From an uncultured Bacteroidia bacterium (GTDB taxonomy: Bacteria > Bacteroidota > Bacteroidia > Bacteroidales > UBA932), in NCBI GenBank assembly GCA_902789245.1, contig CADAND010000006.1, positions 39,741 through 103,740 of the forward strand: a stretch of 64,000 bases of DNA, in the 5' to 3' direction. A program made the translations under genes and the position numbers. The notes under the pieces are model-generated. The model ran no database searches. It saw only the letters and a list, made by a program, of their open reading frames with translations, and was not told the origin of the DNA. Each line of letters begins with the position of its first letter. Within the stretch, counting starts at the first letter, position 1. Shown in pieces: positions 19,582-44,097 of this stretch.

Positions 19582-21861
19582 TTAGGAAATCTGGCTGTAA
19601 TCTTTTACTACGTATTTCTCCTTGCGGAGTTCCCGCACCAGCGGGGCGTTCTGCGGCGCGGAGAGCGTCGGATCGGCATCCAGGACCTGCCCCGCGTAGA
19701 TGCGGGCTTCGGTGAGCAGCTGGCCGTCCTTGGCCAGCGAGGCGATGTTCAGGCTGATGGGCAGGCCGCTCTGCTGCGTGCCCTCCAGGTCGCCGGGGCC
19801 GCGCATCTTCATGTCCTGCTCGGCGATCTCGAAGCCGTCCTCCGTCTGGCACATCAGGTTCAGGCGCTGCTCGGCCTCCTTGGACGTCTTGACGTCCCTG
19901 ACCAGGATGCAATAGGACTTCTCGGCGCCGCGCCCCACGCGGCCGCGCAGCTGGTGGAGCTGGCTCAGGCCGAAGCGCTGGGCGCTCTCGATCACCATCA
20001 CGGAGGCGTTGGGCACGTCCACGCCGACCTCGATCACCGTCGTGGACACCAGGATGTTGGCGCGGCCCGCCACGAAGGCGGACATGTTGAAATTCTTCTC
20101 CTCGCTGCTCTGCTGCCCGTGGACGATGGCCACCTTGTAGTCCGGCAGCGGGAAGGCGTTGACGATCTCCTCGTAGCCCTTCTCCAGGTTCTGCAGGTCC
20201 ATCTTCTCGCTCTCGAAGATGAGCGGGAAGACCACGAAGACCTGGCGGCCGCGGGCGATCTCCGCCCGCATGAACTTGTACATCGACGCCCGGTCGTTCT
20301 GCCTGATGCACATCGTCTGGACGGGCTTGCGGCCCGGCGGCATCTCGTCGATGACCGACACGTCGAGGTCGCCGTAGAGGGTCATCGCCAGCGTCCGCGG
20401 AATAGGCGTCGCCGTCATTACGAGCACGTGCGGCGGGACCCGGTCGGCCTGGTCGGCAGAGGCCTGTCTCGGAAAACCGTGGCCACCCATGGCCTCGTAA
20501 ATGGGGGGGACCCGCTGCTCCGCAGTGGGGGGGATGAGCGTAGCGAAGTTTTCGGGGACAGGGCCTCTGCCGACCAGCGGCCCTTTCGACCAGAGCTTCG
20601 AACGCTGCTCGACGCCGAAGCGGTGCTGCTCGTCAATGACGGCGAGGCCCAGGTTGCGGAAGACGACGTTGTCCTCCAGCAGCGCGTGCGTGCCGACGAT
20701 GATGCCCAGCGAGCCGTCCTCGAGGGCGGCGTGGATGGCGCGCCGCTCCTTCTGCGTCGTGCTGCCGGTCAGCAGCGCACACTGCACGGCAGTGGGCTTG
20801 AGATATTTCTGGATATTGGCGTAGTGCTGCTGCGCAAGCACCTCGGTCGGCGCCATGATACAGGTCTGGTAGCCGTTGCCGATGGCCAGCAGGCAGCTCA
20901 GCACGGCCACCATCGTCTTGCCGGAACCCACGTCGCCCTGCAGCAGGCGGTTCATCTGGTGCCCGCTGGTCAGGTCGGCGCGGATCTCCTTGATCACGCG
21001 CTGCTGCGCACCCGTCAGCGAATACGGGAGGGCGTTGTAGCACGCGTGGAAGTCCGGCCCCACCTTGGGCATCAGCAGGCCGCGCTCGCCGCGCGAACGG
21101 ACATATTTCTGCTTCAGCAGCGAGAGCTGCAGGAAGAAGAGCTCCTCGAACTTGAGGCGGTAGGTCGCCTTCTGGAGAGCGTAGGAGTCCTTCGGGAAAT
21201 GGATGTTCTTGAGCGCGTACGGCAGCGAGACGAGCCCGCGGTCGCGCAGGATGTACTCCGGCAGCGTCTCCACTACCTCCGGCAGGCAGAGCGACAGGGC
21301 GGCCGCCTGGAGCTTGCACATCACCTTGCCGGTGATGCCGCCCGTCTTGAGCTTCTCCGTGCTCGGATACACGCCCGTCAGCGCGCCCTGCGAGAGGGCG
21401 CCGTCCTGCGGCACGTCCACCTCGGGATGGACGATGTTCATGCGCGTACCGAAGGCCTGCGGCTTGCCGAAGAAGAGGAAGGTGGCGCCGGGCACCAGCC
21501 GCTGGTAGTTCCACTTGATCCCCTTGAAAAACACCATCTCCATGCGCCCGGAGGCGTCTTCGACCATGACCGACAGGCGCTTGCAGGCGCCGAAATGGAT
21601 GGGATTGTCGTCCTGGGAGACGATGGATCCGGAGGGGCCGTAGAGGGTGCGGGTCAGGACCGTGGCCTGCAGCTGGACGAAGGCGAGGTCGGGCGCCACC
21701 TGCGCGATGGGCGTGATCCCGCTGCGGTCGATGTAGCGGAACGGGTACAGGTGGATGAGGTCCGAGAGGGTCTCGATCCCGAGCTCGCGCCGCAGGAGCT
21801 CGGCCCGCTTGGGACCGACCCCGGCGAGGTACTGTATGCTGCTGTCCAGTTCCTTGGCCAT
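19582..21861 (-). CDS. recG: ATP-dependent DNA helicase RecG, carrying an in-frame palindromic insertion
   Basis: This 759-residue protein remodels stalled replication forks and branched DNA. It has the N-terminal wedge/OB domain (about 1-250), Walker A (LLQGDVGSGKTMVA), motif II (VIDEQHRFGVEQR), motif III (MTATPIPRTLAM) and the C-terminal helicase and TRG regions. Residues about 430-471, between motifs II and III, are a Pro/Gly-rich insertion (GPVPENFATLIPPTAEQR and following). It is encoded by a 125-bp palindromic repeat with no stop in this frame. Other RecG proteins join KLW.K almost directly to PPHVLVMTATP, so the protein is about 40 residues longer than expected. The start at 21861 gives the conserved N-terminus; a -7 box ends 5 bases upstream of it, so the mRNA is probably leaderless. 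Confidence 0.93.
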   Translation of the reverse strand: MAKELDSSIQYLAGVGPKRAELLRRELGIETLSDLIHLYPFRYIDRSGITPIAQVAPDLAFVQLQATVLTRTLYGPSGSIVSQDDNPIHFGACKRLSVMVEDASGRMEMVFFKGIKWNYQRLVPGATFLFFGKPQAFGTRMNIVHPEVDVPQDGALSQGALTGVYPSTEKLKTGGITGKVMCKLQAAALSLCLPEVVETLPEYILRDRGLVSLPYALKNIHFPKDSYALQKATYRLKFEELFFLQLSLLKQKYVRSRGERGLLMPKVGPDFHACYNALPYSLTGAQQRVIKEIRADLTSGHQMNRLLQGDVGSGKTMVAVLSCLLAIGNGYQTCIMAPTEVLAQQHYANIQKYLKPTAVQCALLTGSTTQKERRAIHAALEDGSLGIIVGTHALLEDNVVFRNLGLAVIDEQHRFGVEQRSKLWSKGPLVGRGPVPENFATLIPPTAEQRVPPIYEAMGGHGFPRQASADQADRVPPHVLVMTATPIPRTLAMTLYGDLDVSVIDEMPPGRKPVQTMCIRQNDRASMYKFMRAEIARGRQVFVVFPLIFESEKMDLQNLEKGYEEIVNAFPLPDYKVAIVHGQQSSEEKNFNMSAFVAGRANILVSTTVIEVGVDVPNASVMVIESAQRFGLSQLHQLRGRVGRGAEKSYCILVRDVKTSKEAEQRLNLMCQTEDGFEIAEQDMKMRGPGDLEGTQQSGLPISLNIASLAKDGQLLTEARIYAGQVLDADPTLSAPQNAPLVRELRKEKYVVKDYSQIS
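20451..20575 (+). repeat. 125-bp palindromic element inserted in frame in recG
   Basis: The outer arms GGTCGGCAGAGGCCTGTC (20451-20468) and its near-complement (20557-20575) pair over 18 bases with one bulged C. Inside are the hairpin GGCCA-CCCA-TGGCC, the core TCGTAAATGGGGGGG, the hairpin CCCGCTGC-TCC-GCAGTGGG, then GGGATGAG and a small GC-GTA-GC hairpin. The core and hairpin order match the element in uvrD. Oriented by the core, it is antisense to recG, yet remains open in the recG frame. No transposase or obvious target duplication is visible. Confidence 0.8.
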
Positions 21862-21866
21862 ACCCA

Positions 21867-21874
21867 CAAATATA
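21867..21874 (-). promoter_or_regulatory. -7 element of recG, 5 bases from the ATG
   Basis: TATATTTG on the minus strand is followed by TGGGT and then the recG ATG. Confidence 0.65.
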
Positions 21875-21897
21875 CGAAAAACCGGCCGAAAAATTAT

Positions 21898-21905
21898 TAT
21901 CTTTG
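21898..21905 (+). promoter_or_regulatory. -7 element of the S9 peptidase
   Basis: TATCTTTG is an exact consensus match and is divergent from the recG box. An in-frame upstream start at 21903 lies inside the box, so the ATG at 21933 is used. Confidence 0.65.
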
Positions 21906-21932
21906 TATTTCCAATACAAAAGACCCTCAAGC

Positions 21933-24152
21933 ATGAAACGTGCATTCATCGCATTAACCTGTCTCATTATGGCAATCAGTTGTGCTAAGAAAACCGACGA
22001 GAGCGGCTACATAGGTCCGTCCGACATCCAGATCGAGGACGGCGTGATGACCCCCGAGACGCTGCTCGCGTTCGGACGCCTGTCCGACCCGCAGCTCTCC
22101 CCCGACGGCAGCCGCATCCTCTATGGTGTTTCCTATACCGACGTCGCGCAGAACCGAAGCTGCCGCAACCTCTTCCTCTGCGAGCCCGACGGCTCCGGCA
22201 AGGTCCAGCTGACGCGCTACGCCAAGAGCGTCAGCTGCGCACGCTGGGCGCTGGACGGGCAGAGCATCTTCTTCCTGCAGGACGGCCAGCTCTGGAAGGC
22301 CCCGCTGAAGGGCAACCAACTCGGCAAGCGCGAGCAGCTGAGCGACGTCCCCAACGGGATCAGCGACTTCAAGCTCTCCCCGGACCAGCAGCAGGTGATC
22401 TACGTCAGCAGCATCAAGAACACGGCCCTGCAGCAGCCCGCCGACACCTACGAGGACCTCGACAAGGCGCAGGCCTACGCCACCGAGGACCTGATGTACC
22501 GCCACTGGGACCACTGGGTGACCGACGTGCCGCGCAGCTACGTAGCTCCGCTCGGCAGGAAGATGATCACCCCGGAAAACTCCGTGGACATCCTCGACAC
22601 CGAAGAGCTCTTCGAGCTGCCCACCGAGCCGTTCGGCGGCGCGGAGCAGCTGGACTGGGCCCCGGACAACCGCCACATCGTCTATTCCTGCCGCAAGAAG
22701 GTGGGCAAGCAGTACGCCTTCAGCACCAACACCGGCATCTATATTTATGACACCCTGACCGGCGCCACCGTCGAAGTCAAGACGGACGGCGGCTACGACA
22801 CCAACCCCATCTGGAGCGCCGACGGCAAGCACATCGCCTGGGTCTCCATGGCCCGCGACGGCTATGAGGCGGACCGGCAGCGGCTGTTCGTCGCCGACGT
22901 CGAACTGGTTGACATCGAGGACGGACAGAACTCCGGCGTCCAGGTCCTGAGCATGCGCGAACTGCTGCCGGCCTTCGACCACGACGTGGCCGACCCGGTC
23001 TGGCACGGCGACGACGAGATCTTCTTCAACGCCCTCGTAGGCGAAGGCATCCAGGCGCTCTACTGCGCCGACCTGACGGGCGACGTGCAGCGCATCACCC
23101 AGCCCGGCTGGAACTTCGACTTTTTCTCCCCCTTCGCCATCATCGACCGCGCCAGCAGCGTGGAACTGCTGACTTCCTACTACTGCATGAAGTTCCCGAC
23201 CGAGCTGGTGTCCATCAACATCACCGCCTACGGCGTGACCTACAACCAGATCACCCGCGAGAACGAGCGCATCATCTCCCAGCTCGCCGACGTCAAGGAC
23301 GAGCGCGTGTTCGTGGAGACAGTCGACTACCAGAAGATGCTCTGCTGGGTGCTCTATCCCCCGCAGTTCGACCCGGCCAAGAAGTATCCGGCCATCGAAA
23401 TCGTGCTCGGAGGCCCGCAGGGCAGCAATTCCCAGGATTGGAGCTACCGCTGGTGCTACCGCCTGATGGCCCAGCAGGGCTACATCGTCATCCTCCCGAA
23501 CCGCCGCGGCACCACCGCCTTCGGCCAGGCTTGGAAAGAGCAGATCTCCGGCGACTACCCCGGCCTCAACATGCAGGACTACCTGAGCGCCGGCCGCTAC
23601 ATCAAGAGTCAGCCCTACGTGAGCAAGCTCGCCTGCGTGGGCGCCTCCTACGGCGGCTACTCCGCCTACATGCTGGAGGGCATGCACGGCAACCTGTTCG
23701 ACTGCTTCATCGCGCACGCCGGCATCTTCGACGAGAAGCAGCTGTGGTACACCACGGAAGAGATGTGGTTCGCCAACTGGGACAACGGCGGCCTGACCCA
23801 GTACGCCTACACCCCAGGCCAGACGGGCCCTTCCTACGACGGCGTCACCTTCGGCGGCATGCAGCAGGCCGGCGCGCCTTACGCCATGACGTCGAAGGCC
23901 CAGCGCCACTACGCCAACTCCCCGTCCTCGATGGTTACGAAGTGGCACACCCCGATCCTCTGCATCCACGGCATGATGGACTACCGCATCCCCTATGAGC
24001 AGGGCATGGCGGCCTTCAATGCTGCGCAGATGATGGGTGTCCCCTCGAAACTGGTGGTCTTCCCGGAGGAGAACCACTGGATCCTCCAGCCGCAGAACTC
24101 CCTGTACTGGTACCGCGTCTTCTTCGACTGGCTCGACCGCTGGATGAAGTAG
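21933..24152 (+). CDS. S9-family prolyl-oligopeptidase-type serine peptidase, lipoprotein
   Basis: This 739-residue protein begins with a lipoprotein signal (ALTCLIMAISC). An N-terminal seven-bladed propeller of TolB-like repeats (RLSDPQLSPDGSRILY, LDWAPDNRHIVYSCRK, YDTNPIWSADGKHIAWVS) gates a C-terminal alpha/beta hydrolase. The triad is Ser572 in GASYGGY, Asp683 in HGMMDYRIP and His715 in EENHW. The family cleaves oligopeptides, often at dipeptidyl or acylaminoacyl N-termini. As a lipoprotein it acts at the periplasmic or outer-membrane face, probably in peptide scavenging. It is monocistronic and ends 6 bases from the convergent thioesterase stop. Confidence 0.92.
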   Translation: MKRAFIALTCLIMAISCAKKTDESGYIGPSDIQIEDGVMTPETLLAFGRLSDPQLSPDGSRILYGVSYTDVAQNRSCRNLFLCEPDGSGKVQLTRYAKSVSCARWALDGQSIFFLQDGQLWKAPLKGNQLGKREQLSDVPNGISDFKLSPDQQQVIYVSSIKNTALQQPADTYEDLDKAQAYATEDLMYRHWDHWVTDVPRSYVAPLGRKMITPENSVDILDTEELFELPTEPFGGAEQLDWAPDNRHIVYSCRKKVGKQYAFSTNTGIYIYDTLTGATVEVKTDGGYDTNPIWSADGKHIAWVSMARDGYEADRQRLFVADVELVDIEDGQNSGVQVLSMRELLPAFDHDVADPVWHGDDEIFFNALVGEGIQALYCADLTGDVQRITQPGWNFDFFSPFAIIDRASSVELLTSYYCMKFPTELVSINITAYGVTYNQITRENERIISQLADVKDERVFVETVDYQKMLCWVLYPPQFDPAKKYPAIEIVLGGPQGSNSQDWSYRWCYRLMAQQGYIVILPNRRGTTAFGQAWKEQISGDYPGLNMQDYLSAGRYIKSQPYVSKLACVGASYGGYSAYMLEGMHGNLFDCFIAHAGIFDEKQLWYTTEEMWFANWDNGGLTQYAYTPGQTGPSYDGVTFGGMQQAGAPYAMTSKAQRHYANSPSSMVTKWHTPILCIHGMMDYRIPYEQGMAAFNAAQMMGVPSKLVVFPEENHWILQPQNSLYWYRVFFDWLDRWMK

Positions 24153-24158
24153 CTGCTG

Positions 24159-24914
24159 CTACTGCTCGAAGAGCAGTTTCTCGATGAATACCTGATGATC
24201 CTCGACGCGCCCCTCGATGATGTGGGCGCCGTCGGGGTCCAGGGTGTGCCAGAGCTCGACGGTCTCGCCGGGCCGGGCCTCGCGGTTGAAATTGATGGTC
24301 AGCTCTTTGAGCATCCTCTCATGGACCAGCTCCTCCGGCAGGGCGTCCATCGCCCAGACGGTGTACCGGACGTTGTTGGCGTGCTGGTTGTAGTCGATGT
24401 CGGACCAGCGGACCGTGTGCCTGTCCAGCAGTTCCAGAGCGGCGCCGCGCGGCACCACCACCTTGCCCGCAGGGGCTTCGATGGCAAAGTCGGGGCTCTG
24501 CGGATCCATCGAGGTGAACTCCGACAGGAAGTCGGGCCGGACCAGGCGCCGCTCCTCGATGTTCATCACCACCCAGGAGCTGGTGGAGTTGACCGCCGGC
24601 TTGCCGTCGGCGCCCAGGATCTGGTAGTCACGCAGGAAGAACAGCCCCTGCATCCCCTTGTGCCAGGTCAGCACCCGGCAGGATTCCTTGTGCATCACGG
24701 GACGCTCGAAGCGGACGTGCTGCCGCGCCAGGACCCAGGTGCAGCCATAGGGGCCGAGCTGTTCGTCGCCGAAATTCAGTTTGTCTGCGCCGTACACGGC
24801 CATGTGCTGGGCCATGTCGAGGAAGGCGGCGGGGCGCAGGATATGCCGCCGGTCCACCTGGTAGCAGGTGGCAGTGAAGTCTTCGTAAAACTTATCTTTC
24901 AGGTAGTCCGTCAT
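24159..24914 (-). CDS. Acyl-ACP thioesterase family protein
   Basis: This 251-residue cytosolic protein has the double hot-dog fold of PF01643-type acyl-ACP thioesterases. The first hot-dog carries YQVDRRHILRPAAFLDMAQ and TWVLARQHVRFERPV. The second carries SDIDYNQHANNVRYTVW, which matches the conserved D.NxHxNNxxY active-site region. The family releases fatty acids from acyl carrier protein; chain-length preference cannot be told. Its start overlaps the end of the NIF3 gene by 23 bases, so the two are co-transcribed. Confidence 0.87.
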   Translation of the reverse strand: MTDYLKDKFYEDFTATCYQVDRRHILRPAAFLDMAQHMAVYGADKLNFGDEQLGPYGCTWVLARQHVRFERPVMHKESCRVLTWHKGMQGLFFLRDYQILGADGKPAVNSTSSWVVMNIEERRLVRPDFLSEFTSMDPQSPDFAIEAPAGKVVVPRGAALELLDRHTVRWSDIDYNQHANNVRYTVWAMDALPEELVHERMLKELTINFNREARPGETVELWHTLDPDGAHIIEGRVEDHQVFIEKLLFEQ

Positions 24915-25686
24915 AGCAAATCGGGTTGGTGTCGAGCTCGGTCTTGACGACCTCGACGCCAGGACAGTTCACCTGCAGGTACTCCTGCAGCAGGTCCTGG
25001 GTATATTGTTCGCTCTGGTAGTGGCCGAGCTCCGCGAGGAGCATGCCGGCGGTCTCGAAATAGTCGTGGTAGTGGAATTCGCCGCTGAGGAAGCAGTCGG
25101 CGCCGGCGCGGATGGCGTCGCGCAGCAGGAAGGCGCCGGCACCGCCGCACAGGGCCACACGCCGGATCTCCCGCCCGTCGAGGGCGGAATGGCGCAGGCA
25201 CTGCACGCCGAAGCTGCGCTTCACGCGGGCGAAGAAGTCCGCGTCGCGCTCCGGCTGCGGCAGTTCGCCGACCAGGCCGGAGCCGGCGTCCTCCCCTTCC
25301 AGGGGCGAAAGCCAGCGGAGTTCCTGCAAGCCGAGCAAAGCGGCAATCCTGTGGTTCACCCCACCGGGGGCGTTGTCCAGGCTGGTGTGGGCGGAATAGA
25401 TGGAGACGCCGGCAGAGAGGGCCTTGACCACGCAGCGCTGCTGGTAGGTGGCGTCAGAGACCTGGCGGAGCGCCTTGAATAGCAGCGGATGATGCGAAAC
25501 AATTAAGTTACATTTCTTCGTAACCGCCTCTTCCACAACAGCTTCCGTGACATCCAGGCAGACCAGCACACGGCTGACTTCCGCATCCGGGAAACCGACC
25601 TGCAGACCCGAGTTGTCCCACTCGTCCTGCAGCTTCAGGGGCGCCAGCCGCTCCAGCGCGGCGATGATTTCTCGCAGTTTTGCCAT
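24892..25686 (-). CDS. NIF3 / YbgI-family dinuclear-metal protein
   Basis: This 264-residue protein has the paired metal-binding motifs of the family: LIVSHHPLLF near residue 65, YSAHTSLDN near 100 and GEFHYHDYF near 215. The family was once annotated GTP cyclohydrolase I type 2; its real substrate is uncertain. The start is the ATG at 25686 (MAKLREII), 22 bases after a -7 box. A GTG three codons upstream is possible but less likely. It heads a two-gene unit with the thioesterase. Confidence 0.88.
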   Translation of the reverse strand: MAKLREIIAALERLAPLKLQDEWDNSGLQVGFPDAEVSRVLVCLDVTEAVVEEAVTKKCNLIVSHHPLLFKALRQVSDATYQQRCVVKALSAGVSIYSAHTSLDNAPGGVNHRIAALLGLQELRWLSPLEGEDAGSGLVGELPQPERDADFFARVKRSFGVQCLRHSALDGREIRRVALCGGAGAFLLRDAIRAGADCFLSGEFHYHDYFETAGMLLAELGHYQSEQYTQDLLQEYLQVNCPGVEVVKTELDTNPICYDGLPER

Positions 25687-25708
25687 ACGCTTCACGTTTT
25701 TGCAAACG

Positions 25709-25716
25709 CGAAGGTA
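25709..25716 (-). promoter_or_regulatory. -7 element (TACCTTCG) of the NIF3-thioesterase unit
   Basis: A one-base TTCG variant of TAnnTTTG, with a leader of about 17 bases. Confidence 0.5.
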
Positions 25717-25783
25717 CGCAAATTATTCCAGATAGCGCGCGCGAAGGGTCCGGATATCCTCGTCGGTGAGCCCGATCGGGGTT

Positions 25784-26644: not shown

Positions 26645-26671
26645 ACGAATAATAGTAGTATCATGTTTCTA

Positions 26672-26679
26672 CAAATATA
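26672..26679 (-). promoter_or_regulatory. -7 element of the APH-like kinase
   Basis: TATATTTG on the minus strand is an exact consensus match. It directly follows the T-run of the upstream terminator. Confidence 0.65.
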
Positions 26680-26707
26680 TAAAAAAATCCCGGGTTGCCC
26701 CGGGATT
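26680..26707 (-). terminator. Intrinsic terminator of the outer-membrane barrel gene
   Basis: AATCCCGGG and CCCGGGATT pair around a 4-base loop. On the minus strand a run of Ts follows and leads straight into the next promoter box. Confidence 0.85.
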
Positions 26708-26737
26708 CCTTATATTTCCTTTTGATACGTCCCTGGA

Positions 26738-27328: not shown

Positions 27329-27354
27329 AAGTTAATAATTTTGGATGGGTACGG

Positions 27355-28848: not shown

Positions 28849-30480
28849 TTACTCGCGCGCGGCGATGATGTCCAGAAGGTAGTGAGGGGTAAAGTAGTTG
28901 TCCATAAACTGGTAGTAGCCCAGCAGAGGAAGGACGGCCTTATACTGCTCGGCCAGAAGGCCCTTTTTGATACGTATGTCACCCGGCCCGGCGATGTCAA
29001 GGACGTTCTGGTCGTCGGCCGAGTACGCCTTCCATTCCACCTTGTCAGTGGAAGGGTTGCCGCAGCGTGCGAAATTGGTCCACATCTGCATGACGGACGT
29101 GAAGATCTCATCCGAGTTGTTGGTGCCGTTGAAGGCGCTGCTTGTCCCGAAGCCGCGCATATTGAACACGAACATGAGCTCCACGGAATGGGCTGCGCCA
29201 ATCTCCGGATTGCTGCCCGGATACGACCAGTAGTAGCAGAACGTTTTGTTGAACGCGCTCTGCACGTCGAGCTGCTGGAGCATGGGGACCCTGAACATGA
29301 GCTCATTGATGAACTCCGTCTCGATAAGTCCCGGCTCCTGGGTACGGCAGACCCGCCAGAATTCTTCGTAATACTTCCTGTCCTCTCCCTTCAGGCAGCA
29401 GGCCGCATCGCCCACGGCGCGCGTGGCAAACAACTTTTGTTCTTCCATGCTCAGCATCGCACCCTCACCCATGAACAGCCTAGCCTCGTCGGCCGTGCTG
29501 CCGGCCATGATGGAGATGTGCTTCGCGTAGCCCTTCCTGTACAGCTCGATGGGCGCCTCCGGGAGCACCTCCGTTCCATAGTAGGGGCAGGATGTGAACT
29601 GGCCGACCGCTTCGAGGTACGCCTTCTGGAGCTCCTCTTCGCTCAGCGCCATGATCTCGTCCATGGTCTTGCAGCCGGTGTACTCGAGCAGCGCCCGGGT
29701 CTTGCCCTGCGCGGACTCGCAGCCGACCGGGAAGGCCAGGGTGGTCGAGCCGCTCTGGGCGATGACCTTCTGGAAATACCGGTTCGCCTCCTTCATGACG
29801 GGCAGGATGGAGACCGAGCCGCCGCCGGCACTCTGTCCGAAGATGGTGACGTTGTCCGGGTCGCCGCCGAAAGCGGCGATGTTCTCGTGCACCCACCGGA
29901 GCGCCATGGCCTGGTCCAGCAGGCCGTTGCAGGGCGCCGTCTTGAAGTTTTCGCCGCCGGGCACCGACGAGAAGTCCATGAAGCCGTACATGTTCAGGCG
30001 GTAGTTGATATTCACAAAGATGATGTCACTATGCTCCTGGACGAGGTTGGCGCCACTGTAGGAGGCCTCCGAACCCGAGCCGACGACGTACGCTCCGCCG
30101 TGGATCCAGACCATCACCGGCTTCTTCGCCGTCTTGTCGTCGGCATTGAGCCAAATGTTCAGGTAGAGGCAGTCCTCGGACATCAGCTTCTGTATGCAAT
30201 CCGGGTAGCCCAGGGAGCCATATGCACCCTTTCCGTAGTACTTGGCCTCGAAGATCCGCTCGCTCGCATCCACGTACTCCGGCGCCTTGAAGCGGCGCGC
30301 GCCCACGGGCGGCTTCGCGTAAGGGATGCCCAGCCACGACGCGACCCCGTGCTCCTCGGTTCCGACGAAAGTGCCGTTCACGCACTTCACGGCATGGCCC
30401 TTGTCGTAACTTCCCTTGATCTCACTGTTCAAGCATTCATATTGCTCGAATCGGACTAAATCCTTGAATTCCCTTTTCAT
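28849..30480 (-). CDS. Type B carboxylesterase, cytoplasmic (second of two in the operon)
   Basis: This 543-residue protein has no signal peptide. Carboxylesterase/lipase motifs are complete: LGIPYAKPPVGARRF, SEDCLYLNIW, VWIHGGAYVVGSG (oxyanion hole), DPDNVTIFGQSAGGGSV with the nucleophile Ser in GQSAG, and His in AAHSVELMFVFN. The C-terminal MWTNFARCGNPS is a family hallmark. It hydrolyses carboxylic esters of small molecules; the substrate is unknown. It is probably the last gene of a seven-gene leftward operon, 35 bases after the phosphoglycerate-mutase-like gene. A paralogue lies at 32160-33710. Confidence 0.9.
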   Translation of the reverse strand: MKREFKDLVRFEQYECLNSEIKGSYDKGHAVKCVNGTFVGTEEHGVASWLGIPYAKPPVGARRFKAPEYVDASERIFEAKYYGKGAYGSLGYPDCIQKLMSEDCLYLNIWLNADDKTAKKPVMVWIHGGAYVVGSGSEASYSGANLVQEHSDIIFVNINYRLNMYGFMDFSSVPGGENFKTAPCNGLLDQAMALRWVHENIAAFGGDPDNVTIFGQSAGGGSVSILPVMKEANRYFQKVIAQSGSTTLAFPVGCESAQGKTRALLEYTGCKTMDEIMALSEEELQKAYLEAVGQFTSCPYYGTEVLPEAPIELYRKGYAKHISIMAGSTADEARLFMGEGAMLSMEEQKLFATRAVGDAACCLKGEDRKYYEEFWRVCRTQEPGLIETEFINELMFRVPMLQQLDVQSAFNKTFCYYWSYPGSNPEIGAAHSVELMFVFNMRGFGTSSAFNGTNNSDEIFTSVMQMWTNFARCGNPSTDKVEWKAYSADDQNVLDIAGPGDIRIKKGLLAEQYKAVLPLLGYYQFMDNYFTPHYLLDIIAARE

Positions 30481-32159: not shown

Positions 32160-33710
32160 TTAACACACCCGCTTGGAAGATCCGTTCCCGAGGCGCTCCG
32201 CCCAGGACATCATCAGGTCTTCCCGCCTGCCGAACAGATCCTTCTGCATGCCGATGGCGTCGTCGAAGACCATGGTCTGGCGGTCGTCGCCGGAGAACTT
32301 CTTCCACGCGTATTTGCCGGTGGAGGGGTTGCCCGTCCGGGCGAAATTGGTCCACATCTCCTTGACGACATGGCGGAACTCGCAGTCTTCGGTCGAGACG
32401 ATTTCTCCGCTCCCCATCGGGTCCGGAATGGGATTGTCGAACAGGTACGGAAGCTCGGCCGCGTGTGCGGCACCAAGCTGGGGGGTTGTCACCGGCTTCT
32501 TGATGAAGTACATATAGGTATTGCCGCCGGCGGCAGCGTGCCGGATGGCCATATCGGTGTTGCCCGCGCGGAAGTTGATGTCGTTGCAGTATTGCTCCAG
32601 CCGGCTCCCCTCGCTTTCGCCTGCGAGCGTGGCCATGAACTCGTCGTACATGGCCTTCTCCTGCTCGCTGAGCAGCGCGCGGTCCCGCTTCGTAATCCAC
32701 CTCAACGTATTCAGGAAGCCTTCCTCGCCGCCCTCGTACGGGACGAAGTACCTGATTTCGTCCAGGTTGGATCCGATCATCAGATCGATCCTGGCCCGCT
32801 TCGCGTCTCCCCACATCTTGTACAGATCCGCCCGGTCCTCGGGCAGCGTGACGCCGTCGAGGAGCGGGAAGTTGGCACCTCCCAGAAGGCTGTTCTTGTC
32901 AATGAGCGCCGCTTTCAGATAGGCATCCACAAGCTGCCCGGTGGTGAGCGCCATCAGCTCGTCCATGGTCTGGCAGCCCGTCGCGGTCAGGAAGTTCTGC
33001 GTGACGTGGATGCCGTGCTCCATGGTGTCGGTGTAGGCGATGTTGGCGCTTTGGGCGATGACTCTCTTGAAGAGCCCTTCGCTTCCCGCGATGAGCGGCA
33101 GGAACGTGACGCTGGCCGAGCCGGCCGACTCGCCGAAAATGGTCACGTTGTCCGGATCGCCGCCGAAGCCGGCGATGTTCTTCTGCACCCACCTGAGGGC
33201 CTCCAGCTGGTCCAGCAGGCCGAGGTTTCCGGCCTCCTTGAAGTTCTCTCCGCCCGGGACCCGCTCGAAGTTCATAAATCCCAAAAAGCCCAGGCGGTAG
33301 TCGATGGACACGAACAGGATGTCGGGGCACTGTTTGGAGATATTGGCCAGGTTATACAGGGGCGAAGCCTGGGATTCTGCACAGAATCCGCCGCCGTGAA
33401 TCCATACCATGACCGGCTTCCTGCTGTCCGTGCAGCGGGTATTGGAATAGATGTTCAGCACGAGGCAGTCCTCGCCGAACTCCGCCGTCCCCCCCGAGTC
33501 GTTTGCGGGGCCGATGGGCACGTGGCCGGGCCTGGTGGCGTCGTACACGCCGTCATCGTCGGCGGCCGGGAGGGCCTTCTGCCAACGAAGCTTCCCCACC
33601 GGCTGCGTTGCGTAGGGGATGCCCTTCCAGATAATCAGCTCGTCCGTCTCCTTGCCGACGAAAGTACCGTTATTGCATTTGACGGCCAGTTTTGTATTGT
33701 CTTGTTTCAT
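32160..33710 (-). CDS. Type B carboxylesterase, cytoplasmic (first of two in the operon)
   Basis: This 516-residue protein lacks a signal peptide (MKQDNTKLAVKCNNGTFVG). The family core is intact: WKGIPYATQPVGKLRW, GEDCLVLNIY, VWIHGGGFCAES, the nucleophile elbow DPDNVTIFGESAGSASV and His in AAHAAELPYLF. The end has MWTNFARTGNPS. It is a distant paralogue of the 28.8 kb copy, sharing its domain order but not its N-terminus. It lies 31 bases after an amidohydrolase gene and 12 bases before the mutase gene. The combination of ester and amide-bond hydrolases suggests stepwise breakdown of a small imported compound (inference). Confidence 0.9.
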   Translation of the reverse strand: MKQDNTKLAVKCNNGTFVGKETDELIIWKGIPYATQPVGKLRWQKALPAADDDGVYDATRPGHVPIGPANDSGGTAEFGEDCLVLNIYSNTRCTDSRKPVMVWIHGGGFCAESQASPLYNLANISKQCPDILFVSIDYRLGFLGFMNFERVPGGENFKEAGNLGLLDQLEALRWVQKNIAGFGGDPDNVTIFGESAGSASVTFLPLIAGSEGLFKRVIAQSANIAYTDTMEHGIHVTQNFLTATGCQTMDELMALTTGQLVDAYLKAALIDKNSLLGGANFPLLDGVTLPEDRADLYKMWGDAKRARIDLMIGSNLDEIRYFVPYEGGEEGFLNTLRWITKRDRALLSEQEKAMYDEFMATLAGESEGSRLEQYCNDINFRAGNTDMAIRHAAAGGNTYMYFIKKPVTTPQLGAAHAAELPYLFDNPIPDPMGSGEIVSTEDCEFRHVVKEMWTNFARTGNPSTGKYAWKKFSGDDRQTMVFDDAIGMQKDLFGRREDLMMSWAERLGNGSSKRVC

Positions 33711-37051: not shown

Positions 37052-37085
37052 GGTTTTAGTGTTTTTAATTATGTTGATTTGTTGA

Positions 37086-37646: not shown

Positions 37647-37657
37647 GGTTATTAGTT

Positions 37658-40324
37658 TTATTTTTTGGCATCAATCATATGCACATCGCGCTGCGGGAAC
37701 GGGATGGTGATGTTGTTCTCCGCAAGGATCTTATAGATGAGCTCTTTGCATTGATACCTGTATTCAATTTGCTCTGATACCAGCACATACTGTCTCACCG
37801 CCACATTCACGGAACTGTCACCGAAGTCGTCGAAACGGATATAATGCCCATACGTGGGCTCAACGATATCCCGGCCGAACTTGTCCTTGGTCTTAAGTAC
37901 CTCCAGCCCCTTCTCCAACGCTTCCCTCACTTTCTGGAAGTCGGTGCCGTAGGCCACGCCCACCTTGATGATGGTAAGTTCGTAAGCATTGTTACGGGTC
38001 AGGTTGGTGAAGTTCTTGCCGAAGAGGGAAGCGTTCAGGAAGGCGACCTGGGTGCCGAAGAGCGTCTCCACCAGCGTGGTCTGGTAGTTGATGTCCACCA
38101 CCCTGCCCCGGATGCCGTCGCAGTCGATCCAGTCTCCGACCCGCAGGCGACCACCCATGAGCTGGATACCGTAGATGAAGTTGTTCAGGATATCCTTGAG
38201 GGCCAGACCGATACCGGCCGACAAACCGCCGGCGACGAGCCCCAGCGAGTCGGTGGGAATGTTCAGCGTGACAATGAAGAGGTCGGCATACACGAACCAG
38301 ACGAACACGCTGATGAGGCTGTTGCCCAGAGCCAGGTTGATCTCGTTGCCCCGCACCGTCTTCCGGTTGTTCTTCCGCATGAAGCGTCGGTACCTGAACG
38401 TCTGCCACAAGGCGTGGATCGCCTTGTTCGCGTAGCGGAACACGACGAAAACCGCACCCAGGAACAAGAGGTTATAGACGGATACCTGGAAACCGCCCTG
38501 CGTGTAGAAGGGCTCCCGGAACATGGCGCGGTAAAGGTCGTTGAATTCAAAAATGTTCAGCGCCCAATAGACGCAGGCGGGGATGGAGCCGATCACGAGC
38601 AGCGGAATCACGACCTCCCGGATCAGATCGTAGAACCAGGTGGCGCCGAACATCAGATTGTCCTTGGTCGCTCCCGCCACGTAGGTGATCTTGGCTTTCT
38701 GGGACGAAATCCGCCTGTCCAGACGCTTTTTCTTGTACAGTTGCGTCAGGTCCCAGACGGAGGCGATGGCGAGGATGAGCGCCAGCTGGAAATACCACCA
38801 CGCCAGGACGATAAGCGACAGGAAAACATAGCCCAGGAAGCTAACAATCAGGGCAATAGCCGTAACTCCAAAGGAAACCCACGCAATCGCCACATCGGTC
38901 TTGTCCGTCTTCCCGCTGTGCCTCAGGTTTACCAGCAGCTGCCACAGCGCCATCGCCAGGAGCAGCGGCGTGAGGATGATATTCAGGAAGGCGTTGGGTA
39001 TGAACAGCACACGGCAGCTGATCACAACCAGGGCCGTAAAAATGGTGGGCAAATAGATCCGGACGCTGTATTGGAGTTTAGCCGGTTCCAGCCGGATGAG
39101 CAGGGCCGTGTTGATGGCCAGGAGCAGCAAGATGAAGGTATGCGCGATGCTGATGCTCTTGCGCACGATATCGTCATCCGAACTCTCATTACTGAGAACA
39201 ACGAACAGGACGCAGGCCAGCAGGATGGCTAGGAAGAGTTTCTGCTCCTTGGCCACCCGATTCCCCAGCGGCTTCACAAAGCGATACAGCGGCATCAGCA
39301 GAAGGTACGACAGCCCCCACAGGACGAAAAACGCCAGGAAATAGACGAACAGCCAGTAAATCCTCGCCGAGTTGGTCATTTGATTGTCTTTTGCAATCTC
39401 TCCATTCCTGTCGACCTGCTCCTTCTCGGCCAGCTTCTTCATGAAAGAGGAGAAGTTGTATTTCTCGGCCATGGCCCGCCAGGCTTCTTTCCAGTACTCT
39501 TTGGGTTGGGCCAGGATGGACTTCCAGGGAGTCTGCCCCTCCTTGAAAACCTTGTCTTGAAGAAGCGAGGAGTAATCCCGGGCGTAGTTGTACGATTCCG
39601 CCATCCTCAACTGCGCCTCCCGGTAATGGGTGCTGTCGGCCATCACCAGCTCACGAGTCTCCGCATACAACTTCAGCAGTTCGGAGGCATACAGGAGGCA
39701 GGAGTCGCGGTCGGTCTGTCCGTCTTCGCTCAGGATGAACACGGAGGGATGCTCCGCGGCAGCGACGGCAACAGCCAGCAGGGATTCCAGCTGCGCGTTC
39801 AGCTCCTGCTGCAGGAGGCTCTCATTCGCCATCAGGTGCGCGTCCAGCGTGTCGTTATGGTACGCCAGACTGTCCGGCACCACTTCCACGTCCCGGAGCT
39901 CCGGCGGAAGCCGGCGGAGAGACTCGATCAGGCGCGCGTAGCGGTTGATCTCCACGTCGAGGCTGGACACGATACGGTCATACGGCAAACGGTTGGCGTT
40001 GAATTCATCGTATTCCTGCGTCACCTTCTCCAGCGCATAGCTGATGTCGAACGTGTAGTCCTGCTTCTGGGAATAAAGCATCAGGGACAGGTCATTGCAC
40101 TTTTTGACAATGTCAACCATCTTCTGGTGCTGCACTTCGTACTTGCTTCCCAGTTGTTCCCGCGTTTCGCTGATCAGCAGATAGTCATGATACAGCTCCC
40201 GGCGCAAGTTGGAAAGCGTCGCATCCAGGTCCATACCTGTAAATACAGCCAAGGCGGGCACTGCAAAAATGCTCAGCGCCGCAAGGATGTTGATAAGCTT
40301 GCGTTTTCTAGTGTTGGTTACCAT
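37658..40324 (-). CDS. Large MscS-family mechanosensitive channel (MscK/MscM-like layout)
   Basis: This 888-residue protein has an N-terminal membrane or signal helix (ILAALSIFAVPALAVFTG). A predicted alpha-helical extracytoplasmic domain follows to about residue 310, then roughly ten membrane helices. The C-terminal MscS core has the pore helix (LVAGGLSAGIGLALKDILNN), the beta domain (RLRVGDWIDCDGIRGRVVDI) and the alpha/beta exit domain (VGVAYGTDFQKVREALEKG, EYRYQCKELIYKIL). Such channels open on membrane tension to release solutes. It is the first gene of the operon, just downstream of a -7 box and AraC-type repeats. In this setting it might release or sense a metabolite rather than serve general osmoprotection (inference). 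Confidence 0.9.
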   Translation of the reverse strand: MVTNTRKRKLINILAALSIFAVPALAVFTGMDLDATLSNLRRELYHDYLLISETREQLGSKYEVQHQKMVDIVKKCNDLSLMLYSQKQDYTFDISYALEKVTQEYDEFNANRLPYDRIVSSLDVEINRYARLIESLRRLPPELRDVEVVPDSLAYHNDTLDAHLMANESLLQQELNAQLESLLAVAVAAAEHPSVFILSEDGQTDRDSCLLYASELLKLYAETRELVMADSTHYREAQLRMAESYNYARDYSSLLQDKVFKEGQTPWKSILAQPKEYWKEAWRAMAEKYNFSSFMKKLAEKEQVDRNGEIAKDNQMTNSARIYWLFVYFLAFFVLWGLSYLLLMPLYRFVKPLGNRVAKEQKLFLAILLACVLFVVLSNESSDDDIVRKSISIAHTFILLLLAINTALLIRLEPAKLQYSVRIYLPTIFTALVVISCRVLFIPNAFLNIILTPLLLAMALWQLLVNLRHSGKTDKTDVAIAWVSFGVTAIALIVSFLGYVFLSLIVLAWWYFQLALILAIASVWDLTQLYKKKRLDRRISSQKAKITYVAGATKDNLMFGATWFYDLIREVVIPLLVIGSIPACVYWALNIFEFNDLYRAMFREPFYTQGGFQVSVYNLLFLGAVFVVFRYANKAIHALWQTFRYRRFMRKNNRKTVRGNEINLALGNSLISVFVWFVYADLFIVTLNIPTDSLGLVAGGLSAGIGLALKDILNNFIYGIQLMGGRLRVGDWIDCDGIRGRVVDINYQTTLVETLFGTQVAFLNASLFGKNFTNLTRNNAYELTIIKVGVAYGTDFQKVREALEKGLEVLKTKDKFGRDIVEPTYGHYIRFDDFGDSSVNVAVRQYVLVSEQIEYRYQCKELIYKILAENNITIPFPQRDVHMIDAKK

Positions 40325-40394
40325 TTTAGTATTATCAAAATGTGGTCTGAAATACTAATGATACATAGTTAGCCAGAATTCCTTAAAATCACAA

Positions 40395-40402
40395 TAAAGA
40401 TA
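40395..40402 (-). promoter_or_regulatory. Probable -7 element of the MscS-amidohydrolase-esterase operon
   Basis: TATCTTTA on the minus strand is one base off consensus, giving a leader of about 65 bases. The operator-like repeats lie immediately upstream. Confidence 0.5.
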
Positions 40403-40404
40403 GG

Positions 40405-40459
40405 GTTCCAGCTTGCATTATTTGCAAATTCTGGAACTCTTTTGCAGATTCTGAAACTC
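40405..40459. promoter_or_regulatory. Tandem and inverted repeats: candidate AraC operator
   Basis: Two direct repeats, TTTGCAAATTCTGGAACTC (40421-40439) and TTTGCAGATTCTGAAACTC (40441-40459), match at 17 of 19 positions with a 20-base period. This suits an AraC dimer on one DNA face. In addition GTTCCAG (40405-40411) and CTGGAAC (40431-40437) form an inverted repeat with inner TTGCA/TGCAA. They cover the region just upstream of the -7 box of the MscS operon. Confidence 0.6.
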
Positions 40460-40474
40460 CCGAAGGGGAAAAAG

Positions 40475-41578
40475 CTACTTGTCCGGATCGCGCATCCAGG
40501 CCGAAACCGTCTGTCCCGTGACCTGCTTGAACGATGCCGCGAAGGTGCTGTAGCTGTGGAATCCGCTCTCGTACGCGAGCTGCTGGGCGGTGAAAATGCG
40601 CAGCTCAGAGACAGCATCATGGTACAGGCGGATGAAGTGCCGGACACGCAGGCCGTTGATATAAGCGTTGTACGTTAGCCCCTGCTGGGCGAAGAAGCGG
40701 CTCAGGTAACTGTGGTTGGTGCCGATGGTCTGGGCGAGCTGCGCCAGGGTGAGGTCGTGCTGCAAGTAAAGCTGCGCCGCCTCGCACTTCATTTCGAGCA
40801 GCGGGCCGATGTTGGCCGGGATCAACGTTGACGCAGCCATCCGCTCGGCTTCTGCCGGATCTTCCTCCGGCAGGGCGCCGCCGCCCAGCTCCTGCAGCGT
40901 TTCCACGCGCCAGAGCAACAATCCGATCAGGACGAGCACGTCCACTTGCAGCAGATAGGTGACAACCAGGCCGGTATCTGAATTCTCGTAGATGACGAAG
41001 AAGATCAGGAAAACCGCCAGCACCAGAAGACTCAACCGGATCTCCTTGTGCTCCAGGTCGGCATAGTTGTCCTGCAGCCAGCGCCCATAGCGCCGGACAG
41101 CGAAAACTATATACAAAGCAAAGAGAACGATCAGCACCAGGAGATAGATGCGCAGCGGCAGGATAACGGACGTGTCCGCGCGGAGAAAGTAGATGCCTGA
41201 CAGGGCGAAAACGGGCAGCAGGGAGACGCAGACCGGCCAGAAAGGACGCCGCCGGTCCTGGAGCATGGCCAGCAGCGTACCCATCATCGTGGGAAGCATC
41301 GTGATCACGTCCAGGAAACAGACAATCCAATAGGCGGTCATCATGTCTTCCTGCGAGTCGATGGAGTTGGCAGCAATCATCCACCATACATGGCTGAGCG
41401 CCACGGCAAGCAGAAAAGCAGCGGCCCAGCGGCGCAGGCGGACGGGAGACGTCACATCGGGTGCGATGGCGTTCGCCTTCCTGAACAGGAGAAAGAGGGC
41501 GGCCGCCACGCCCAGCAGCGTCACGCCGCCGCAGAGCATCACGAAGTAAACGTCTTGAAGAAGTTGCTGATAGTCCAT
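40475..41578 (-). CDS. AraC-family regulator with N-terminal multi-pass membrane domain
   Basis: This 367-residue protein has seven or eight hydrophobic segments over residues about 10-235 (for example VMLCGGVTLLGVAAALFLLF, IYLLVLIVLFALYIVFAV). A C-terminal AraC double helix-turn-helix of about 100 residues follows (LTLAQLAQTIGTNHSYLSRF, then ELRIFTAQQLAYESGFHSYS and FKQVTGQTVSAWM). Bacteroidota often have such membrane-tethered AraC proteins, presumably sensing a membrane or envelope signal. It lies 11 bases after uvrD, so it may be read through from the uvrD promoter. It lies 150 bases upstream of the MscS operon, whose control region carries matching tandem repeats. It is the obvious candidate regulator of that operon. 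Confidence 0.85.
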   Translation of the reverse strand: MDYQQLLQDVYFVMLCGGVTLLGVAAALFLLFRKANAIAPDVTSPVRLRRWAAAFLLAVALSHVWWMIAANSIDSQEDMMTAYWIVCFLDVITMLPTMMGTLLAMLQDRRRPFWPVCVSLLPVFALSGIYFLRADTSVILPLRIYLLVLIVLFALYIVFAVRRYGRWLQDNYADLEHKEIRLSLLVLAVFLIFFVIYENSDTGLVVTYLLQVDVLVLIGLLLWRVETLQELGGGALPEEDPAEAERMAASTLIPANIGPLLEMKCEAAQLYLQHDLTLAQLAQTIGTNHSYLSRFFAQQGLTYNAYINGLRVRHFIRLYHDAVSELRIFTAQQLAYESGFHSYSTFAASFKQVTGQTVSAWMRDPDK

Positions 41579-41589
41579 ACTATTTTGTT

Positions 41590-44097
41590 CTATGCCAGCG
41601 GGCGGATCTTGGCGTATTTGAGCAGCAGGAGCTTCTCGCCGTGGTCGTCGAAACGGATCTTGGCCTTCATCTCGGGGGCGCGACCGGAGAGTTCGAGGAT
41701 GGTCCCAGCGCCGAAACGGTTATGTTCTATGCGCTGTCCGACAGACAGTTCCGTCATGGGTACTCCCACAAAGTTTGCATCCGCCAGAGCTCTGCCGGCG
41801 GGAGAGCCAGCTTGCCCCCGGCCGGGTTCGGCCTTCGGCCTCATCCCTCCCACAGCCTGCGGCTGCGGGCCCCTCCCGTTTACGAAGCCACGGGTGGCTA
41901 CGCCCGTCGGGGGCAACTGGCTCTCCGACCGGCTGAAAACATCCGAGCGACGCTGCATCGGGGCAACGTGGCTCTGCGGCGAAGCACTGCGGCGCTCATA
42001 CCGAACACCGGACGACTGGCCATAGTTACCATTCCCCGTGCCGAAGCGGTCGAGCCGGCCGCCGGAGAAGCGGCTGCCGAAGCCGCCCCACTCGTGCGTA
42101 ACGCCCGCATTGTCAAAATCTTCCTCCTCCAGCGGATTCTCGATATAGCGCGGATCGATCTCCTTCAGGAAACGCGACGGCGCATTCGACTCATGCTTGC
42201 CGTTGCGCATGCGCGTCCCGGCGAAAGACAGCCGAACCGCCTTCTTGGCGCGCGTCATCGCCACGTAGAAAAGCCGCCGCTCCTCCTCCACCTCGGGCTT
42301 CGCCGACAGCATCGACACGCTCGGGAAAAGATTCTCCTCCATCCCGGCCACGAACACGTACGGGAACTCCAGGCCCTTGGAAGAATGCGCGGTCATCAGC
42401 GCGACCTTGTTGTTCGTATCCTCGTCCTCGCTCACATCCACGTTGCTGAGCAGGGAGACATTCTCCAGGAAGTCGTCCAGCGTGAACACGCCGACCTCTC
42501 CCCCCTCGGCCTCGTAGTCCTCGGCCTCCTCCCCACGCTCCTCGACGAACTGCGCCACGCTGTTGATGAGCTCCTCGAGGTTCGCCACGCGGGAGAGGCC
42601 CTCGATCGAAGTGTCCAGCTTGTAGAAAGCGTACAGGCCGCTCTCGTCGGCGATGCGCTTGGCCAGCTCCCAGGCGTCGGTCGTCGGCACGAGCGCGCTT
42701 AGCTTCGCGATCATCTCGCAGAAAGGCAACACCTTGGGCACCTCGCGCGCCGCCTGGAAAAGCGGCCAGCCCTGCTGGCGCGCCACGGCCTCGATGGCCT
42801 CCATCGCCTTGTCGCCGACACCGCGGGCGGGCTTGTTGACCACCCGGCGGAAGGACTCGTCGTCGCGCGGGTTGACGACCAGCTTGAAGTAGGCCATCAT
42901 GTCCTTGACCTCGGCGCGGTCGAAGAAGGAATTGCCCGAATAAATCATATAAGGGATATTGCGCCGGCGGAGCTGCTCCTCCAGCGCGCGCGACTGCGCG
43001 TTCGTGCGGTACAGGATGGCGAAATCCTGATACTGCGCCCGCGCCGTGCGCATCCGGTCCAGGATCTCGGAGACGATCATCACCGCCTCCTCCGTCTCCG
43101 TATAGGCCTTCAGCAGGCGGATCGGCTCCCCGTCCTCGCCCACGGCGTAGCACTCCTTGGGGATGCGCCCCTCGTTGTGGGCGATGAGCGAATTGGCGGC
43201 GTCCACGATGACCTGCGTGGAGCGGTAGTTGCGCTCCAGGCGGTAGATCTTGCATTCGGGGTAATCCTTCTTGAAACTGAGGATGTTCTCGATGCGCGCG
43301 CCGCGGAAGGCGTAGATGGACTGGCTGTCGTCGCCCACCACGCAGATGTTGTGGTGGCGCTGGGCCAGCTTCTTCAGGATCAGGTACTGCGCCTGGTTCG
43401 TGTCCTGGTACTCGTCCACCATCAGGTGCGTGAAGCGCCCGGAGATGGAAGCGAGGGCCTCCGGGTTGTCCCGGAGCAGGTAATTCATGTTCAGCAGGAT
43501 GTCGTCGAAATCCATCACCCCGCTCTGCTTGAGCTTCTCCTGGTAGCGCTGGTAGACCTCCCCCAGGCGCGGGCGCTTGGCGTGGTAATCCTGCGTCTGA
43601 AGCTCCTGGGCGGCCTGGTAGGCCGTGTACGTGATGAGGTTATTCTTGGCCATGGAGATGCGGGAGAGCACCTCGCGCGGCTTGTAGATCTTGTCGTCGA
43701 GTCCCATCTCCTTCACGCAGGCCTTGATCGCGCTCTGCGAGTCGGAGGTATCGTAGATGGTGAAATTGGCCGGATAGCCCAGCGATTCGGCGTACTCGCG
43801 CAGGAAACGCACGAACACGGCGTGGAAGGTGCCCATCACCACGCGGCGCACGTTCCCGTCGCCCACCATCGCCGCGATCCGCTCCTTCATCTCGCCGGCC
43901 GCCTTCTTCGTAAAGGTCAGCGCCAGGATGCGCGCATCTTCCTGTAAAGCCAGTATATACGCCACCCGGCTGGTCAGCACGCGGGTTTTCCCGGATCCCG
44001 CTCCCGCCACGATTAGCACCGGCCCGTCCACCTGGCAGACGGCTCTTTTCTGCTCCTCGTTCAAATCTTCCAAAATCGTGTTCACTTTATCCATCAT
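41590..44097 (-). CDS. UvrD/PcrA/Rep-family DNA helicase with an in-frame palindromic insertion
   Basis: This 835-residue SF1 helicase acts in repair and in clearing recombination intermediates. It has Walker A (VAGAGSGKTRVLTSRVAY), motif II (MVDEYQDTNQAQY), GDDSQSIYAFRGA, YRTNAQSR and the motif VI region MTRAKKAVRLSF. The C-terminal Tudor-like end (VGQRIEHNRFGAGTILEL) is characteristic of PcrA/UvrD. The variable linker before it contains residues about 725-766 encoded by a 126-bp palindromic repeat (PTGVATRGFVNGRGPQPQAV and following). The start is the first of two tandem ATGs; the -7 box ends 7 bases upstream, so the leader is absent or tiny. It is divergent from nqrA, and the AraC gene follows after 11 bases. 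Confidence 0.93.
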   Translation of the reverse strand: MMDKVNTILEDLNEEQKRAVCQVDGPVLIVAGAGSGKTRVLTSRVAYILALQEDARILALTFTKKAAGEMKERIAAMVGDGNVRRVVMGTFHAVFVRFLREYAESLGYPANFTIYDTSDSQSAIKACVKEMGLDDKIYKPREVLSRISMAKNNLITYTAYQAAQELQTQDYHAKRPRLGEVYQRYQEKLKQSGVMDFDDILLNMNYLLRDNPEALASISGRFTHLMVDEYQDTNQAQYLILKKLAQRHHNICVVGDDSQSIYAFRGARIENILSFKKDYPECKIYRLERNYRSTQVIVDAANSLIAHNEGRIPKECYAVGEDGEPIRLLKAYTETEEAVMIVSEILDRMRTARAQYQDFAILYRTNAQSRALEEQLRRRNIPYMIYSGNSFFDRAEVKDMMAYFKLVVNPRDDESFRRVVNKPARGVGDKAMEAIEAVARQQGWPLFQAAREVPKVLPFCEMIAKLSALVPTTDAWELAKRIADESGLYAFYKLDTSIEGLSRVANLEELINSVAQFVEERGEEAEDYEAEGGEVGVFTLDDFLENVSLLSNVDVSEDEDTNNKVALMTAHSSKGLEFPYVFVAGMEENLFPSVSMLSAKPEVEEERRLFYVAMTRAKKAVRLSFAGTRMRNGKHESNAPSRFLKEIDPRYIENPLEEEDFDNAGVTHEWGGFGSRFSGGRLDRFGTGNGNYGQSSGVRYERRSASPQSHVAPMQRRSDVFSRSESQLPPTGVATRGFVNGRGPQPQAVGGMRPKAEPGRGQAGSPAGRALADANFVGVPMTELSVGQRIEHNRFGAGTILELSGRAPEMKAKIRFDDHGEKLLLLKYAKIRPLA
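41801..41926 (-). repeat. 126-bp palindromic element inserted in frame in uvrD
   Basis: The outer arms at 41801-41822 and 41906-41926 pair over about 20 bases with one bulged C; after two mismatches pairing extends to 41794-41798 with 41929-41933. Read on the minus strand it has the hairpin AGCCA-CCCG-TGGCT, core TCGTAAACGGGAGGG, hairpin CCCGCAGCC-GCA-GGCTGTGGG, GGGATGAG, then GGCC-GAA-GGCC. The same modules in the same order make up the recG element. Here the core is in sense with the host gene. It lies in the flexible linker before the Tudor-like domain. Confidence 0.8.

Follow-up and report, generated by a model that had tools for sequence, protein, structure and literature searches.

The window, a stretch of 64,000 nucleotides from an uncultured Bacteroidia bacterium, carries two copies (E1 and E2) of what is probably a non-autonomous mobile palindromic element, which would act like the Rickettsia palindromic elements (RPEs) and have its folded strand recognised in trans. 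Both belong to a large, apparently undescribed family of roughly 135-letter mobile repeats in Bacteroidales.

E1, on the plus strand, sits in frame in recG (19582-21945, minus strand) and antisense to it, whereas E2, on the minus strand, lies sense and in frame in the variable C-terminal linker of uvrD/pcrA (41590-44097, minus strand), both gene names being taken from motifs recognised in the translations. Their outer limits are approximate, about 20442-20582 for E1 and about 41795-41931 for E2, core and both arms included. E1 consists of a left arm (20442-20471), a core (20472-20553) and a right arm (20554-20582). Its core matches the covariance model R1 with an E-value of 3.9e-19 in the source genome, and the core of E2 (41821-41908) does so with an E-value of 1.6e-16. 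A 21-base motif common to the two copies has exactly two matches in the window, against 0.04 expected from shuffles when up to three mismatches are allowed. Compared with 200 shuffles, the E1 and E2 stretches fold with z scores of -4.2 and -5.0 as RNA, and of -4.8 and -4.3 as DNA. Both elements reported by an earlier, sequence-only reading of this DNA are therefore real. Elsewhere in the window, the three diverged direct repeats at 127-258, 29795-29926 and 33091-33222, with an identity of 71-77% to the reference, are probably paralogous genes.

As for the fold, the core is an H-type pseudoknot of stems S1 and S2, followed by two GGGRGGG tracts that enclose a variable hairpin (P2) and by a dispensable hairpin P3, the whole measuring about 70-130 nt and mostly about 80. 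In E1, S1 spans 20478-20497 (20478-20484 pairing with 20491-20497, with a T·T mismatch at 20480/20495, as read from the sequence and the pair counts of 261 copies), S2 spans 20486-20505 (CCCAT at 20486-20490 with ATGGG at 20501-20505) and P2 occupies 20511-20529. In E2, the inner four pairs of S1 lie within 41886-41899 (AGCC at 41896-41899 with GGCT at 41886-41889), S2 within 41875-41894 (CCCGT at 41890-41894 with ACGGG at 41875-41879) and P2 at 41849-41869. The sequence-only reading had described a simple core hairpin, GGCCA/TGGCC in one copy and AGCCA/TGGCT in the other. These letters are present as claimed and the inner pairs (GGCC/GGCC or AGCC/GGCT) hold, but the structure is a pseudoknot, and the T taken as closing the hairpin belongs instead to the second helix, CCCAT/ATGGG or CCCGT/ACGGG. 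Its middle hairpin, CTGC/GCAG versus CAGCC/GGCTG, was correctly read, but also includes the adjoining CCC/GGG.

Covariation was counted in three ways. Among 23 copies, a set used for both the covariance model and this first count and from which long-P2 copies were excluded, 96.9% of the cells are paired in the pseudoknot structure vs. 78.7 in shuffles, and 14 of the 23 pairs are altered on both sides; the 98 doubly changed cells compare with 27.8 after shuffling, none of 500 shuffles reaching 98 and slid versions of the structure giving 2 to 14. Among 109 matches with S1 omitted, 424 compensated cells were found vs. 121.5 in shuffles, a count that favours the model, since the alignment was fitted to it. 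A model-free count on 261 copies relied on a pattern that takes only the standard S1/S2 spacing and fixes the CCC, GGGRGGG and CC letters, while leaving the S1 letters and the variable S2 letters free: the two variable S2 pairs are Watson-Crick in 520 of 522 cases (shuffled mean 231, maximum 273), and those of S1 in 1546 of 1827 (shuffled mean 1228, maximum 1261). In a 256-copy set, the variable S2 pairs are Watson-Crick in 510 of 512. The compensatory change from which the sequence-only reading had deduced a family of structured coding repeats is thus borne out.

Covariation was found in the closing stem as well as in S1, S2 and P2. As many as seven pairs make up S1, the third of them weak, and the S2 pair types are TC/GA, GT/AC, AT/AT and GC/GC, plus rarer ones; the CCC/GGG pairs of S2 and P2 are almost invariant. 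Two more GGG tracts, without a partner in the model, flank P2 and might take part in a putative G-quadruplex or triplex. P2 itself may be as short as about four pairs or exceed 60 nt, and some copies lack P3. At L398 (G082, a site orthologous to L054), the S1-S2 loop is larger by about 55 nt and holds its own hairpin, S2 being kept.

Concerning the size of the family, a search of the source genome with E2 as the query gave 24 places, and the covariance model based on 23 cores detected 30 copies at E ≤ 0.01; the exact pattern has nine matches there, and its reversed control none. In a survey of 61 related genomes, filtered more strictly than the source-genome search, copies occur in 33 of the 37 genomes of the genus (source genome included) and in none of the 24 from other families. 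The covariance search that the earlier reading had suggested thus finds many more than two copies, along with the compensatory excess. A wider model, applied at E ≤ 1e-4 to 393 genomes from the order, found copies in five: the source genome, one genome from another genus of the same family and three from other families. It gave none in two other species of the genus, which are weak misses with 11 candidates scored per genome. Scanning a species-genome collection with the pattern yielded at least 118 stretches, and the 80 matches listed are all from Bacteroidales, Bacteroidaceae or Bacteroidia, two of them from Candidatus Cryptobacteroides.

The exact pattern has no match in viral contigs, and E2 alone gave none against plasmid and phage records by distant blastn. 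A Rfam scan of the window returned no match, and one of eight loci at E ≤ 5 returned eight rows, all below the gathering threshold and none over an element core. No description of the family was found in Rfam or in the literature listings searched, among them that of PMC8040213 on structured RNA candidates from human microbiomes. Two arrangements of copies were also observed. One locus (L092, G013:C2) bears three divergent copies in tandem, at 54, 359 and 665, with a spacing of about 305 bp. Two loci (L502 and L507) of G088, a genome from another bacterial family, share downstream sequence, one of the copies being at a contig start, and are probably carried inside a longer repeat.

According to a codon model for which 19 ORFs of the window were the training set (four of these had a negative score, or a higher one on the opposite strand), 16 of the 30 source-genome copies are in frame and open in a gene, seven with the core in sense and nine in antisense. 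The occurrence of both orientations in genes argues against the fold being maintained for the RNA of the host gene. This bears on the reading of each copy as a cis-acting RNA, regulator or ribozyme, of its own host gene. Such a role would suit the RNA-like fold, the pseudoknot and one P2 pair with G·T in 124 copies (the P2 counts use 241 of the 256 copies), but the copies occupy unrelated genes in both orientations and are often absent from orthologues of the host genes, which makes it very unlikely. Under the preferred explanation of a mobile palindrome, a trans-acting enzyme would recognise the folded core strand, either RNA or single-stranded DNA, and it is during mobilisation that selection on the fold would operate, given that genes harbour copies in both orientations; the cell would tolerate insertions in loops and linkers.

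Evidence for movement came from sister species. For 20 of the 30 source-genome sites, the two flanks were joined and searched for in three of them, at about 82-85% DNA identity, and several sister sites have gaps of about 43-68 where the source genome has 181-229. At most of these short-gap sites, core and arms are absent from the sister sequences, the others showing intermediate gaps, remnants or a different element. For ordinary copies, the near-empty sites give a net insert of 117-139; two copies with a long P2 give 183 and 186, and the poorly aligned L049 gives 168. In a closer pair, G023 and G071 (89%), 16 G071 and two G023 sites were searched, one G071 site at a contig end being dropped. 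Eleven of the 13 G023 loci match the locus of a G071 copy, and six of the 16 G071 sites have a short gap in G023. Five of these six were inspected: the element is cleanly absent at L350 and L351 and nearly so at L347, L338 is a bare hairpin where G071 has an element (L490), and L345 is ambiguous.

L350/L469 is the cleanest case: the sister reads AACT followed directly by AAGAA, and between these G071 has 116 nt, made up of two 20-bp arms and the core. The arms therefore arrive together with the core and are not made from the target. An origin of each arm through inverted copying of the target flank was likewise ruled out by clean empty sites devoid of either arm. No target duplication is present at L350/L469, the one clean site, the remaining ones being too diverged. 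A bare hairpin also occurs in the window at 19495-19576, where two 30-nt arms, 87% complementary and 22 nt apart, enclose no core; it adjoins the 3' side of a plus-strand ORF ending at 19485, and its arms look like the element arms of this genome (CGGCAGTTGCCCCCGG).

Sites shared between species showed a different picture. Relative to the flanks, the core orientation is flipped in two pairs of sister-species loci (L311/L331 and L312/L342). The recG linker has 11-12 residues in 24 of 30 orthologues vs. 56 in the source genome, and at the recG site the arms are wholly different in G000 and G082, which have the same core form, and in G015, where the core has the opposite orientation; in G027 and G009, recG has other inserts at the linker site. 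In uvrD, the arms are wholly different between G000 and G008, and also between G071 and G072, whose cores are one base apart in about 80. The uvrD of G023 is 57 nt shorter than that of G071 and lacks most of the core while keeping the arms, probably through a deletion between short GC repeats. That several species repeatedly and independently received insertions at one recG codon is hard to believe, and inverted cores and wholly different arms at shared sites fall outside the prediction of simple insertion. In that same recG linker, G027 has a different but similar-looking motif (GGTGC..GAGCGATAGCG..) at L096, which is also found in the flank of L050 and may belong to a sister family of folded, coding repeats.

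Flanking the core and pairing with one another, the arms measure about 20-30 bp and evolve much faster than the cores, shared sites included. Three G007 copies (L271, L272 and L274) have an identical core and P2, from which L273 is one base off, yet their near-perfect palindromic arms differ. Among 50 copy pairs with identical 53-nt core segments, some of which are orthologues, the mean arm identity is 12.9 of 20 vs. a background of 8.5 (sd 2.0), which indicates that arms are partly inherited, chiefly near the core, yet quick to diverge. The bias in left-arm base composition extends about 25 nt from the core and levels off thereafter (233 of 252 copies), and this suggests the length of the arm. 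The identical-core, composition and polarity counts all preselect copies with a complementary S2. A bulged C, which the sequence-only reading had noticed in the arms of both elements, recurs in many source-genome arms but is absent from those of G007.

These arms distinguish the family from an ordinary MITE, in which terminal inverted repeats are recognised by a DDE transposase. The short, non-autonomous length and the inverted ends are MITE-like. However, arm sequence is unconserved between copies, even those with identical cores, the conserved part is the centre and not the ends, and the one clean site lacks a target duplication, so that this explanation is highly improbable.

Strand polarity was then read from the mismatched pairs of the 244 of 254 copies with good arm alignment. 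Within 25 nt of the core, and on the core strand, the arms contain 164 G·T vs. 50 A·C pairs (p about 2e-15, the copies not being independent), while beyond 25 nt the two are equal, at 87 each. The excess of G·T is seen in nine of 10 sets of loci; G016 shows none (2 vs. 3) and G000 a slight one (12 vs. 9). By orientation in genes, the G·T to A·C counts are small, namely 5 to 0 in antisense and 3 to 1 in sense; within these small numbers, antisense copies look no less structured than sense ones, contrary to what a cis-acting RNA of the host gene would predict. In the distal P2 pairs the polarity is opposite to that of the arms, with A·C 25 vs. G·T 7. The G·T excess in the arms and the equality outside them point to one strand, as RNA or single-stranded DNA, as the folding form, in line with the earlier view that such a folded molecule matters. 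Single-stranded DNA also tolerates G·T, and the polarity is therefore no proof of RNA.

The same counts weigh on a further explanation, according to which the palindromes are kept after insertion by DNA template switching (quasipalindrome correction) alone, with no role for RNA or for single-stranded DNA of a particular strand. Template switching has been reported, in the parts of the sources consulted, to homogenise inverted-repeat arms, invert spacers and produce multibase compensatory changes (PMC8604942, PMC8794818). It would fit the cores inverted between sisters at the two pairs of loci above and the outermost arm bases, which at L039 and L054 mirror the coding sequence of the host. Yet it should be strand-neutral, in contrast to the polarity of the arms, it does not by itself give the covariation of the pseudoknot, and it creates no new sequence. 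As the sole explanation it is quite unlikely; within that of a mobile palindrome, template switching at the palindrome may flip cores and homogenise arms.

The origin of new arm sequence was also searched for. As to capture from phages, three arm stretches (20, 20 and 18 bases) looked for as exact matches in 2.9 million viral contigs gave 0, 0 and 1 match, the single one coming from the 18-base stretch. As to copying from other parts of the genome, 107 14-mer matches of 267 arms were found outside recognised elements in 2.15 Mb, a search of low power in which the matches include overlapping loci and element remnants, and for which a rough hand estimate of the random expectation is about 40. 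Tentatively, the pseudoknotted single-strand fold may be the only conserved part of the element, new self-complementary arms of about 20-25 nt being acquired or rebuilt during spread or during renewal in place, so that pairing would be inherited and sequence would not. We know of no mobile element of any kind whose ends are renewed like this by the element itself.

With regard to the mobilising enzyme, the sequence-only reading had proposed a REP-type or IS200-like one and the presence of a RAYT/TnpA-like gene. A PF01797 search gave weak Y1 matches in the genus, and most of those inspected form one divergent family, about 305 aa in length and bearing HUH (MxDHxH) and YxxNN motifs. It is present in 25 of the 37 genus genomes and, weakly, in one of the 24 others. 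All 14 aligned members match both PF01797 and NF047646 (REP_Tyr_transpos, NCBIfam), with an NF047646 score of 46 bits in the member shown and a cut-off of 80. A HUH subclass with a YIxNNP motif is described in Cyanobacteria and Bacteroidetes, and a Bacteroidetes subclass with atypical secondary structures is described too, in the part of PMC6006769 consulted. The single HUH gene of the source genome is 1.7 kb from an element copy.

A RAYT-like HUH (Y1) transposase that mobilises the element as single-stranded DNA, as proposed for REP/REPIN, would be one route within the mobile-palindrome explanation. Its presence in the genus and the gene near a source-genome copy speak for it, but the covariance model R1 found no match at E ≤ 10 in 20 Y1 loci (63,297 bases; the source-genome gene is not among them, and L432 and L437 belong to another Y1 subfamily). 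Co-occurrence is also weak: the family is found in 24 of 33 genomes with elements and one of four others (Fisher p = 0.09), and its association with copy number (medians 12 and 3.5) has p = 0.025, or p = 0.27 for 22 strong genomes, all uncorrected for completeness. Moreover, 34 copies occur in G016 (98% complete), where no HUH match is found at 1e-10, while G010 (63% complete) has two HUH genes, no element copy being found there. The RAYT-like family that had been anticipated thus exists in the genus, but is not clearly linked to the elements; it is the best single candidate mobiliser, not a finding, and as a route it is plausible though somewhat doubtful. By our judgement, a route through RNA, with a reverse-transcriptase or ribozyme step, would be slightly less likely, and some third route about as likely as the HUH one. 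Arrays of short CACAAA/TTTGTG palindromes were observed in the flank of L353 and at G023:C25 and G071:C52, and might be a REP-like family and the true partner of the HUH genes.

Among known systems, REP/REPIN-RAYT (TnpAREP) repeats are likewise hairpins hypothesised to be mobilised by RAYT, and intragenic ones, several of them in repair genes such as the UvrD/Rep helicase, appear in the part of PMC3733652 consulted. Their unit, however, measures 20-40 bp and has a GTAG or CGTC tag unpaired at one end, vs. about 135 bp and a pseudoknot here, where a GTRG at core columns 11-14 varies and sits in stem S1; moreover, RAYT genes are flanked by repeats, unlike the Y1 loci above. For the REP-type or IS200-like mobilisation initially proposed, the HUH family in the genus is favourable, but the tested tag, size and flanking-repeat features differ, and membership of either class is not established by this evidence.

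The closest likeness is to RPEs, as they are described in the consulted part of PMC2229807 (the comparison being one of descriptions): long palindromic folds, in frame in conserved genes, and of similar size (105-146 bp for RPEs; net inserts here mostly of 117-139, with 116 at L350 and some sites intermediate). Unlike that description, the present family has a conserved pseudoknotted core and variable arms, and the 80 matches listed are all from Bacteroidia. Nematomorpha mitochondrial genes also hold long inverted repeats inside coding sequence (PMC6649704), although the part of that source consulted makes no mention of a mobile conserved core.

Intragenic bacterial palindromes have been known since the RPEs, and this family offers hundreds of copies, empty sister sites and a fold that can be probed. 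Its strand polarity says that one single strand matters, and conserved repair proteins bear linkers coded by a parasite. Arms that change wholesale and yet remain paired are explained by none of the mechanisms considered.
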